Assembly: GCA_017643165.1 (NCBI GenBank)
Contig: JAEPNY010000004.1
Coordinates: 124,001-188,000 of the forward strand
From: Psychroserpens sp.
Lineage (GTDB): Bacteria; Bacteroidota; Bacteroidia; Flavobacteriales; Flavobacteriaceae
Length of the DNA stretch: 64,000 nucleotides
Direction: 5' to 3'
Below are positions 15,282-17,656 of this stretch, piece after piece. Both the position numbers and the translations under genes were made by a program. Each line of letters starts with the position of its first letter. Within the stretch, counting starts at the first letter, position 1. Below the pieces are notes generated by a model. It did no database searches. It was not told the DNA's origin and saw nothing but the letters and a program-made list of their open reading frames with translations.

Positions 15282-16505
15282 ATGATTTTAGAAATGAAAG
15301 TTCCTTCACCAGGAGAATCGATCACTGAAGTAGAAATTGCTGAATGGTTGGTACAAGATGGAGATTATGTAGAAAAAGACCAAGCTATCGCAGAAGTTGA
15401 TAGCGATAAAGCTACATTAGAATTACCTGCTGAGGCTAGTGGAACAATAACACTTAAAGCTGAGGAAGGCGATGCTGTTGAAGTAGGAGCTGTAGTGTGT
15501 TTAATTGATACAGGAGCTGAAAAACCAGAGGGTGGAGCTGCCGCACCTGCTAAAGAAGCTGAGGAAAAGACTGAAAAAGCACCTGCGCCAGAGGCTAAGA
15601 CTCCAGAAGTAAAAACTGAAAAGACATACGCTACTGGTACAGCAAGTCCAGCAGCAAAGAAAGTATTAGCTGAAAAAGGAATTGTTGCGAGTACAGTTAC
15701 GGGAACAGGCAAGGATGGACGTATTACGAAAGAAGATGCCTTGAATGCAGTTCCTTCTATGGGATCACCTTCTGGTGGTAACCGTGGAACTTCAAGAAGT
15801 AAAATGTCAATGTTACGTCGTAAGGTTGCAGAACGTCTTGTTGAAGCTAAGAATACTACCGCCATGTTGACCACATTCAACGAGGTGGACATGACGCCAA
15901 TTTTTGATTTAAGAAAAGAATATAAAGAAGATTTTAAAGCAAAGCATGGTGTGAGTTTAGGGTTCATGAGTTTCTTTACGCTAGCAGTTGTGCGAGCGTT
16001 AAAATTATTCCCTGCGGTCAATTCTATGATTGATGGAAAAGAAATGATCTCCTACGATTTTTGCGATATTAGTATTGCCGTTTCAGGACCAAAAGGTTTG
16101 ATGGTGCCTGTAATAAGAAATGCGGAAAACTTAAGTTTTAGAGGTGTTGAATCAGAAGTTAAGCGATTGGCAATTCGTGCACGTGATGGTCAAATAACCG
16201 TTGATGAAATGACCGGTGGAACATTCACAATTTCAAATGGTGGTGTGTTTGGAAGTATGCTATCTACACCAATTATTAACCCACCTCAAAGTGGAATATT
16301 AGGGATGCACAATATTGTCGAAAGACCTGTAGCCATAGATGGAAAAGTAGAAATAAGACCAATTATGTACGTTGCGTTATCATATGACCACAGAATTATT
16401 GATGGCCGTGAGTCGGTAGGATTCTTAGTAGCAGTAAAAGAAGCCTTAGAGAATCCTGTAGAGTTATTGATGAATAATGATATTAAGAGGGCTCTTGAAA
16501 TGTAA
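15282..16505 (+). CDS. sucB: 2-oxoglutarate dehydrogenase E2, dihydrolipoyl succinyltransferase
   Basis: A 407-residue core subunit. An N-terminal lipoyl domain has the lipoylated Lys in [10 protein letters not shown] (near residue 44). An Ala/Pro/Glu-rich hinge follows (about residues 78-118), then the peripheral-subunit-binding domain ([14 protein letters not shown], about 120-155). The acyltransferase domain ends with the catalytic HxxxDG motif DHRIIDGR near residue 369. It transfers succinyl to CoA. The operon with sucA ends at the strong terminator at 16531-16566. Confidence 0.97.
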
Positions 16506-16530: not shown

Positions 16531-16566
16531 AAAAAAGCGCAATTCAGTTTTGAATTGCGCTTTTTT
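16531..16566. terminator. Bidirectional terminator after sucB
   Basis: Stem AAAAAAGCGCAATTCA / TGAATTGCGCTTTTTT with a 4-base loop. It serves sucB on the plus strand. The A tract becomes a U tract on the minus strand, so it can also end the 35-codon ORF transcript coming the other way. Confidence 0.9.
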
Positions 16567-16592
16567 CCTAATAAAAAATAACTAACTAATAA

Positions 16593-16700
16593 CTAAAAAA
16601 AATTCACAAGAATATTAATAGATATTACTAAAATGGCGCATAACATTAAGCCATGAATAATAATTCGGTCGAATTGACTTTGTTCTTTTTTTATTTTCAT
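16593..16700 (-). CDS. Putative 35-residue single-helix membrane peptide
   Basis: The reverse strand holds an ATG-to-TAG frame of 35 codons. The first 12 residues are charged and polar (MKIKKEQSQFDR), followed by about 22 hydrophobic residues (IIIHGLMLCAILVISINI and on) and a short Phe-Phe end, as in small bitopic membrane peptides. It lies at the end of the first unit of the tandem regulated array and just before a terminator that works in its direction, so a transcript from the palindrome-TTG-(-7) promoter at 16825-16871 would carry it. Whether it is translated is unknown. It is not recognised as a known family. Confidence 0.5.
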   Translation of the reverse strand: MKIKKEQSQFDRIIIHGLMLCAILVISINILVNFF

Positions 16701-16731
16701 GGATGCGACATTTTATCATCTAAATTTTAAT

Positions 16732-16819
16732 AAAGCTCCAAGTAAAGATGGCCCGGAGCTTTATTTACCCTAATTAATAGAGTTACTGAAAGTAAATCCC
16801 TCGAATTTATAATAACTCT
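16732..16819 (-). ncRNA. Array unit A: structured leader upstream of the 35-aa ORF
   Basis: Downstream of the unit A promoter the minus-strand RNA can form a stem from TAGAGTTA and TAACTCTA (16813-16820 with 16779-16786). A second hairpin AAAGCTCC / GGAGCTTT (16732-16763) is followed by only a weak T-rich stretch. Layout (5' hairpin, then 3' hairpin) parallels units B and C, but this unit probably reads through into the small ORF at 16593-16700. Confidence 0.4.
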
Positions 16820-16824
16820 AGCGG

Positions 16825-16871
16825 CTAAATTCGTTATAATAACATTATGAGTCAATACGTAGAAATACGTA
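16825..16871 (-). promoter_or_regulatory. Array promoter A: palindrome + TTG + degenerate -7
   Basis: On the minus strand the 16-bp palindrome TACGTATTTCTACGTA (16856-16871) is directly followed by TTG (16853-16855), then 20 bp, then GAATTTAG (16825-16832) in the -7 position. The spacing is identical to units B and C; the -7 element is the weakest of the three. Confidence 0.5.
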
Positions 16872-16902
16872 TTTTTTGCATTTAAATGTTAAAATTTCAT
16901 AG

Positions 16903-16971
16903 AAAAAAAGCTCTAAGACCACATGGGTCTTAGAGCTTATTCCTTCTTTCACGAAAGGAAATTGATTAATA
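16903..16971 (-). ncRNA. Array unit B: putative small RNA of about 70 nt
   Basis: Begins a few bases after the exact -7 element TACTTTTG (16978-16985) and ends at a strong intrinsic terminator. The terminator stem is GCTCTAAGACC / GGTCTTAGAGC (16910-16936), followed on the minus strand by seven U. A first hairpin forms from TTCCTTT and the GGAA segment at 16939-16960. The interval has no credible ORF. Its 5' region shares GCTATTA with unit C at nearly the same offset from the -7 element. Target and function unknown. Confidence 0.6.
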
Positions 16972-16977
16972 GCAGAA

Positions 16978-17024
16978 CAAAAGTAGTAAATGCACAAATT
17001 TGAGTCAATAGGTATATCTACGTG
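16978..17024 (-). promoter_or_regulatory. Array promoter B: palindrome + TTG + exact -7
   Basis: Minus strand: palindrome CACGTAGATATACCTA (17009-17024), TTG (17006-17008), 20-bp spacer, TACTTTTG (16978-16985), a perfect TAnnTTTG. The palindrome abuts the -33 TTG, where a class II activator would be expected to bind. Confidence 0.65.
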
Positions 17025-17033
17025 TTTTTTGAA

Positions 17034-17104
17034 TAAAAAAAACTCTGGATTTTTAATAATCCAGAGTCCAAATTCAATTAATTCTCCCTTAGAGAATATA
17101 ATAG
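17034..17104 (-). ncRNA. Array unit C: putative small RNA of about 70 nt
   Basis: Starts just after CATCTTTG (17111-17118) and ends at a strong intrinsic terminator: stem ACTCTGGAT / ATCCAGAGT (17042-17067) followed by eight U on the minus strand. A 5' hairpin ATTCTC-loop-GAGAAT lies at 17081-17097. Size and order of hairpins are the same as in unit B. No ATG occurs in the interval. Function unknown. Confidence 0.6.
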
Positions 17105-17110
17105 CTACTA

Positions 17111-17157
17111 CAAAGATGAAGCATAAGATTTTGCGAAACAATAGGTATATTTACCTG
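17111..17157 (-). promoter_or_regulatory. Array promoter C: palindrome + TTG + near-consensus -7
   Basis: Minus strand: palindrome CAGGTAAATATACCTA (17142-17157), TTG (17139-17141), 20-bp spacer, CATCTTTG (17111-17118), five of six defined -7 positions matching. All three promoters of the array span exactly 47 bp from palindrome to -7 element. Confidence 0.6.
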
Positions 17158-17189
17158 TTTTTGAATTTCAGGAGTGTAGAACGTTGATC

Positions 17190-17633
17190 TTAATTAGATT
17201 TTAAATATAAGTACTTCTTCTCGTAGTCAATTATTGCATGACCTTTTTTTAATAGATCTGCACCTATAATACCATGTACTGTTTGGGCATTGTGGTTTTT
17301 TAAAGCAGTATTCACATGGGTAAGATCAAAAAGGATTAAAACGACCTTTTCTTGTTTCCATTTTCCAATTTTGAGCTTGTTTTTCTTTGATAATTGAGTT
17401 TGCATATCCGATGCACCTGCACCTGCAGCCTTTATGTCAGAATCGATTACGTTTAAATTGAATGTATCAACAGCGTCAAAACCAACGCAAGAGCTAGAAG
17501 CGCCTGTGTCCAAAATAAATAGGCCCTTAACACCATTTATACTGGCTTTCACTTCAAAATGATTGGTCTTTGTAAGCTTTAATTTTACTTTGTTGTAGCC
17601 TTTTTCAAGGAGATAGTCTTTCAATGAATCCAT
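17190..17633 (-). CDS. Retropepsin-like single-domain aspartyl protease
   Basis: A 147-residue protein with the aspartic protease signature FILDTGASSSCVGF (catalytic Asp at residue 42) and a hydrophobic-hydrophobic-Gly segment GIIGADLL near the C-terminus. This is the topology of a retropepsin monomer that would dimerise. There is no signal peptide, so it is likely cytoplasmic. The open frame extends to a TTG at 17651, but that codon lies inside a -7 element; the ATG at 17633 (MDSLKDYLLEKGY) is the better start. It is divergent from tatD across about 50 bp. Its substrate is unknown. Confidence 0.85.
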   Translation of the reverse strand: MDSLKDYLLEKGYNKVKLKLTKTNHFEVKASINGVKGLFILDTGASSSCVGFDAVDTFNLNVIDSDIKAAGAGASDMQTQLSKKNKLKIGKWKQEKVVLILFDLTHVNTALKNHNAQTVHGIIGADLLKKGHAIIDYEKKYLYLKSN

Positions 17634-17648
17634 TCCTGTTTTTTTTGG

Positions 17649-17656
17649 CAAATATA
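17649..17656 (-). promoter_or_regulatory. -7 element of the retropepsin-like gene
   Basis: TATATTTG on the minus strand, 15 bp before the ATG at 17633; shares the short divergent region with the tatD promoter. Confidence 0.6.

Follow-up and report, generated by a model that had tools for sequence, protein, structure and literature searches.

What drives three evenly spaced copies of one palindrome-promoter block in a Psychroserpens genome that encodes no regulator beside them? The window, by which we mean the whole 64,000-nucleotide stretch analyzed here (C4:124001-188000 of G000, a draft assembly of 3.14 Mb in 8 contigs), carries these blocks on its minus strand, between a gene for a retropepsin-like protease and a convergent gene that, following the initial annotation, we take to be sucB (Table 1). 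To our knowledge, little is known of small-RNA regulons in Flavobacteriaceae. We propose, with a probability of roughly three in four, that the locus comprises small RNAs and a micropeptide mRNA in a tandem cluster that would be governed by one NarL/FixJ response regulator, and that this cluster has been orphaned in the window's genome.

Table 1. Features of the array and its flanks, in window coordinates
Feature	Position	Strand	Details or basis
sucB (presumed), convergent flanking gene	15282..16505	+	ORF
Terminator-like hairpin in the gap between sucB (+) and array (-)	16531..16568		sequence
35-codon single-helix micropeptide MKIKKEQSQFDRIIIHGLMLCAILVISINILVNFF	16593..16700	-	C-terminal ending conserved in relatives
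Unit C leader	16701..16822	-	strong hairpin (about 16729-16765), no long T-run after it; sequence, fold
Palindrome C TACGTATTTCTACGTA	16856..16871	-	TTG 16853-16855; -7 GAATTTAG 16825-16832; block 16871-16825 = TACGTATTTCTACGTA-TTG-N20-GAATTTAG; G016 has GAATTTTA as -7
Predicted small RNA B, 71 nt, GCTATTAATCAATTTCCTTT...	16903..16973	-	terminator GCTCTAAGACC...GGTCTTAGAGC-T7
Palindrome B CACGTAGATATACCTA	17009..17024	-	TTG 17006-17008; -7 TACTTTTG 16978-16985; block 17024-16978 = CACGTAGATATACCTA-TTG-N20-TACTTTTG; pattern scan
Predicted small RNA A', 71 nt, GCTATTATATTC...	17035..17105	-	5' hairpin; terminator CTCTGGATT...AATCCAGAG-T8
Palindrome A' CAGGTAAATATACCTA	17142..17157	-	TTG 17139-17141; 20-bp spacer; -7 CATCTTTG 17111-17118; block 17157-17111 = CAGGTAAATATACCTA-TTG-N20-CATCTTTG; pattern scan
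Site of the ~211-aa NarL/FixJ regulator gene in relatives; gene missing here	17158..17189 (32 bp)		alignment with G016
Retropepsin-like aspartyl protease gene	17190..17651	-	PF13650, E=1e-11

Each of the three blocks spans 47 bp and consists of a 16-bp palindrome, an attached TTG, exactly 20 bp and a -7 element, just as first annotated. Two units (A' and B) lead to predicted RNAs of 71 nt that both begin GCTATTA and fold into a 5' hairpin plus terminator, and the third (C) leads to the micropeptide and the terminator on the sucB side, again in agreement with the initial annotation; its description of the unit bodies as divergent went too far, since A-type RNAs, B-type RNAs and the peptide leader have a common start and terminator type and are thus less unrelated than supposed. 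The -7 sequence TAnnTTTG is exact in one of the three window units (TACTTTTG), while array sites of relatives mostly carry GAnnTTTA or GAnnTTTG. The A' 16-mer recurs, exactly or with one change in its center, in the arrays of L033, L035, L036, L037, L039, L040, L042 and L043, and the unit-B sites of relatives read TACGTA-N4-TACGTA.

Relatives of the window's genome offer a candidate for the driver. The initial annotation saw no regulator nearby, which holds for G000 and fails for the other 22 of 23 genus genomes, in all of which a NarL/FixJ response regulator of ~211 aa adjoins the array (E 3.4e-74 or better). At locus L164 of Gelidibacter, such a protein, 211 aa long and with REC and GerE domains (PF00072 and PF00196), is encoded by the ORF that immediately precedes the array; the genus regulators are 60-68% identical to it. 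The regulator precedes the array in further genera too, and in both L164 and G016 the retropepsin-like gene comes before that of the regulator. Residues D9, D10, D54, T82 and K104, presumably those of the phosphoacceptor site, are invariant in 43/43 loci, and the stop codon of the regulator gene lies within the first palindrome in 25 of these 43 (24/42 without a duplicate, L052 and L167 being one genome). Across the family, 180 of 397 genomes have a regulator match (E<=1e-30), and they include 71 of the 82 site-bearing genomes versus 109 of the 315 site-free ones (Fisher p 5.6e-18, odds ratio 12, a test that makes no correction for phylogeny, at a threshold that paralogs may also pass). The association runs short on both sides: 11 of the 82 site-bearing genomes, G000 included, have no match at this threshold, and 109 of the 180 regulator-bearing genomes have no exact site. 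Read as TACGTAG-N2-CTACGTA, the operator forms an inverted repeat of the 7-2-7 type next to the -33 box. According to the available part of PMC7419079, many NarL sites of E. coli are of this type too, and the yeaR and ogt promoters each carry one immediately upstream of -35. Because of the adjacency, the invariant residues, the stop-codon overlap, the co-occurrence and this NarL-like operator, the neighboring response regulator is probably the regulator of the array, and we infer that it binds the palindromes. The initial idea of one activator for several RNAs and a micropeptide thus gains good support from comparison, with a candidate activator in 22 of 23 genomes.

Two further observations concern the regulator genes. 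In L036 (G017), a decayed first palindrome TACGTAGAACATAGCATTG sits at the regulator stop codon and is probably the remnant of a lost unit A. A second regulator group (31-35% identical, 210-220 aa, grouped by score and length) is present in 15 genus genomes among the matches listed, with no counterpart of like score in G000 among them.

G000 is the only one of the 23 genus genomes without a close homolog of the regulator, its best match being 25% identical. The gene order in G016 is retropepsin gene, regulator, A', B and C; in G000 the retropepsin gene is followed by 32 bp and A'. As judged from this draft assembly of G000, the regulator gene has most likely been lost and the array orphaned, because the gene is missing while the promoters persist. 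The window's array might then be a dead remnant, with no unit transcribed since the loss, a reading that is compatible with our explanation for the relatives and that we regard as possible but rather doubtful. Besides the missing gene, it draws on the operators of B and C, each of which differs from G016 at 3/16 positions, and on the -7 element of unit C (GAATTTAG versus GAATTTTA), whereas the operator of A' is identical to that of G016, the terminators and the peptide frame are intact, and TAGGTAAATATACCTA and TAGGTAGAAATACCTA, two more palindromes elsewhere in the genome, each have TAnnTTTA at a distance of exactly 20 bp. Four of the five palindromes in G000 have a good -7 element at 20 bp, which counts against the proposed history itself, as it would not be expected long after loss of the regulator.

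The same persistence bears on a second alternative, in which another transcription factor binds the palindromes and still runs the G000 array, the neighboring regulator being a mere passenger. This would suit the five palindromes that G000 keeps without a close regulator homolog, and also the existence of two site classes, TACGTA..TACGTA and YAGGTA..TACCTA, the second of which is found outside arrays as well. The string YAGGTANNNNTACCTATTG occurs at 17 places in 12 of the 23 genus genomes (reversed control 0); nine of these places lie outside arrays (seven in other genomes, two in G000) and have a -7-like element 20 bp away, though in one of them (TAACTTGT) the fit is only loose; the second class thus resembles a promoter class as well. 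A passenger would nevertheless hardly be found adjacent to the array in 22 of the 23 genomes, with its stop codon in the operator in 25/43 loci, with family-wide co-occurrence and before sites of NarL-like 7-2-7 form, and we consider this alternative unlikely. WYL-type regulators, a candidate modeled on DriD, PafBC and BrxR, were rejected as the other factor: PF13280 has no match in G000, versus matches in 7/14 control genomes. By eye, the sites L118 and L126 (G017, G000) lie behind a similar small membrane-protein gene with different genes downstream, a setting that resembles an insertion hot spot.

What the units encode can be judged from 74 of them for which a terminator was found within 100 nt: 31 of A type, 28 of B type and 15 others. 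From these, 27 A-like and 23 B rows were picked by eye, omitting duplicates, rows that an early T-run had truncated (L042, L043, L047) and odd rows (L132, L212, L230 and others). The predicted RNAs in these alignments are 65-74 nt long. Double compensatory changes occur at 12 of 17 consensus pairs in the A-type and at 6 of 11 in the B-type alignment, nearly all of them within the terminator stem in both. The 5' hairpin shows weak covariation in the A-type (2/5 pairs) and is absent from the consensus fold of the 23 B-type rows, of which the first 14 nt are identical throughout. Inspection by eye found a single GGGA in A-type rows and a GGA on the 3' arm of the 5' hairpin in B-type rows, and in neither set several unpaired GGA motifs per RNA. 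The initial annotation had proposed a check against Rfam: at the gathering score, the window and nine array loci match tRNAs only, and we rejected assignment to any Rfam family, all other matches being below that cut-off. Candidate small RNAs with no Rfam match have also been described in F. columnare, according to the available text of PMC5395568. A model (R1) matches the A' RNA, which was among its input rows, and 46 of its 51 matches in the genus fall inside the arrays from which the rows came, the other five being weak (E 0.003-0.007); R1 matches were accordingly dropped as proof of such RNAs elsewhere.

The peptide of unit C is small and hydrophobic, with one helix, and is recognizable across several genera by its ending NILVNFF or a close variant. 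Its pN/pS is 0.23 over 25 ungapped rows from relatives, namely those of exactly 36 codons ending in NFF, other genera included where they fit and the window's 35-codon copy excluded. The peptide pattern is unmatched in 12/48 loci rows (11/46 without the duplicates L130 and L131); these include the genus loci L047, L053 and L054, and the rows of L167 and L198 end early. A conserved, hydrophobic single-helix peptide brings to mind a locus of the type I toxin-antitoxin kind, in which a toxic peptide would be held in check by small RNAs acting on its mRNA; the self-complementary AUUAAU within their shared 5' end also speaks for this. Such an arrangement appears improbable, as the predicted units are on the same strand without overlap, so that none of the RNAs is antisense to the mRNA of the peptide, all units have one promoter layout, and the peptide pattern goes unmatched in 11 of 46 array loci.

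The promoter layout itself is sharply defined. The exact pattern of palindrome plus TTG, TASGTANNNNTACSTATTG, occurs 91 times in the 23 genus genomes, 63 times in the array and 28 times elsewhere by manual count of the listing, and the reversed pattern 0 times. Spacing was assessed on 281 distinct sites with the -7 pattern [TGC]AnnTT[TC][GA], which does not include the unit C element GAATTTAG, leaving out L176 and six loci titled non-Bacteroidota. A -7-like element lies at exactly 20 bp at 140 of the 148 sites whose leader is of the array type and at 96 of the 133 others, an approximate split, the leader test being loose enough to put the lipoprotein locus L103 with the arrays; no other distance in the range of 8 to 32 bp has more than 4. 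Since sites from the named collection were chosen with a fixed GWWC center, statistics on the center are biased and the spacing test is not. Chance or a repeat artefact is refuted by the reversed control (91 versus 0) and the fixed spacing. Two outcomes that the initial annotation had named as fatal to its reading did not arise, the array being present in 23/23 genus genomes and the palindromes keeping a promoter-like spacing rather than random positions.

How widely is this layout distributed? TACGTANNNNTACGTATTG is present in 82 of 397 family genomes, those of the genus included, with a reversed control of 0. An order sample of 395 genomes, family members included, contains 13 with TACGTANNNNTACGTATTG (the reversed control is found in 2), three of them outside the family (G517, G668, G717); the pattern is therefore largely a Flavobacteriaceae feature within the order. 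In a scan of a named collection, at least 117 stretches matched, 80 of which are the matches listed here. Among these matches listed, arrays with the GCTATTAAT leader are found in Gelidibacter, Subsaxibacter, Mangrovimonas, Xanthomarina, Ichthyenterobacterium, Winogradskyella, Olleya and a Lacinutrix MAG, and matches also come from Psychroserpens burtonensis, damuponensis, jangbogonensis, mesophilus and luteolus and from Subsaximicrobium. Six of the matching loci listed are titled as other phyla, including three Chloroflexi with repeated sites. In those three (L209, L185 and L219, titled Chloroflexi HGW-Chloroflexi-2/-3), TTGACTC follows the palindrome, and L209 has four sites in 3 kb (one with an altered center), three of them before secreted-protein-like genes, which amount to two distinct genes. 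As far as genome sequences can tell, the array and its promoters are a control unit common to many marine flavobacteria. A full-text search of largely open-access journal papers returned no match to the palindrome string, and searches of the same literature pairing small RNA and response regulator with Flavobacteri, Psychroserpens, Bacteroidetes/Flavobacterium and Winogradskyella showed no such system among the results listed.

The sites outside arrays stand before varied genes, with the 20-bp spacing kept at 96/133. A target gene set was built from 96 non-array sites of a separate compilation by dropping 24 without an ORF of 90 aa starting within 420 bp and using 69 of the remaining 72, six loci titled non-Bacteroidota being excluded. 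Defense-like targets comprise a TIR protein (L117), a SIR2-TPR protein (L107), L137 (PDC-S15, FRG-like) and an AAA ATPase that matches PtuA (with PADLOC E values as low as 3e-215 among the 69 members of the set). Other targets are an Endonuclease_NS protein (L115), an MBL protein (L113), many lipoproteins (by eye) and contractile injection parts, namely a sheath (L110, by eye), one CIS_TMP match and the tail-tube-like L357 and L363 (by eye); in two members from other genera (L136 and L139), ruvB lies behind a palindrome promoter. Enrichment of the regulon in defense genes was not established: in a random 30 of 70 target/neighbor pairs, PADLOC at 1e-10 matched 3/30 targets versus 0/30 upstream neighbors, which is too few, and one of the three (L113) has no single passing stretch. 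Many of the sites outside arrays (L109, L117, L162, L165, L168, L170, L172, L203, L226 and others) have a common leader, TAACTTCG-c/tttaac...gatat...attgaaac...atatc, that by eye may form a hairpin with AAC/GTT ends and is followed by unrelated genes; to the eye they look like a cassette (an integron-like idea) or an insertion hot spot.

Under the proposed explanation, a phosphorylated dimer of the NarL/FixJ regulator would occupy the 7-2-7 palindrome adjoining the -33 box and make contact with RNA polymerase where the -7 element is weak, in the manner of E. coli NarL at yeaR and ogt. The resulting RNAs of ~70 nt, with the common 5' end GCUAUUAAU, may act in trans, and unit C would be a micropeptide mRNA with a structured leader, switched from the same type of promoter. 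In relatives, the gene of this presumed regulator stands directly before the array, its stop codon often inside the first operator; in G000 the promoters are still there, the operators of B and C having changed, and the array may be decaying or run by another regulator.

Parts of this scheme have precedents. GacA is itself a NarL/FixJ-family response regulator, the NarL half-site consensus is TACYYMT, and CiaR, unlike the candidate array regulator with its NarL/FixJ type, inverted-repeat sites and tandem RNAs, is an OmpR-type regulator with direct-repeat sites and dispersed csRNA genes. In Pseudomonas, as described in the available part of PMC2375449, rsmX, rsmY and rsmZ have a palindromic upstream activating sequence, a potential GacA site, so that both systems combine such a palindrome with several small RNAs per regulator; in contrast to the several unpaired GGA motifs of Gac/Rsm RNAs, A-type RNAs have one GGGA hairpin, and the RNAs here are in tandem beside the regulator with a micropeptide within the cluster. 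The Streptococcus CiaRH system has five similar csRNAs under one response regulator (PMC3091779 and PMC4507080, as far as available), a likeness of layout. At yeaR and ogt, where activation by one NarL dimer is reported in the accessible text (PMC7419079), the 7-2-7 repeat is likewise just upstream of -35, although the array differs in its half-site TACGTAG, its Bacteroidota -33/-7 promoter and the small RNAs among its targets. For Bacteroidota sigma-ABfr promoters, the available portion of PMC7366714 gives a -7 element of TAnnTTTG; that of the arrays is mostly GAnnTTTA or GAnnTTTG, with a palindrome on the -33 side. The layout is most likely akin to Gac/Rsm or CiaR-csRNA and the RNAs themselves new.

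A broader reading, tentative and rather less likely than not, is that this is a family-wide post-transcriptional switch in which one regulator would serve 2-5 paralogous units (RNAs of ~70 nt and a membrane micropeptide), its operator cassette having spread before accessory genes (contractile injection parts, TIR, SIR2, Septu-like and other defense-like genes, surface lipoproteins), and in which the G000 operators, moving to TAGGTA..TACCTA, might record a hand-over of the regulon.

Beyond the initial annotation, then, the regulator is kept in relatives and missing here, and many unlinked genes are preceded by a promoter of this layout. The locus yields a candidate regulator, an operator, a promoter spacing, RNA types and a micropeptide together, and is directly testable because it is conserved over several genera with cultured strains. 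The window's genome provides a natural case of regulator loss, and the operator is a ready motif for charting a wider regulon of accessory genes.
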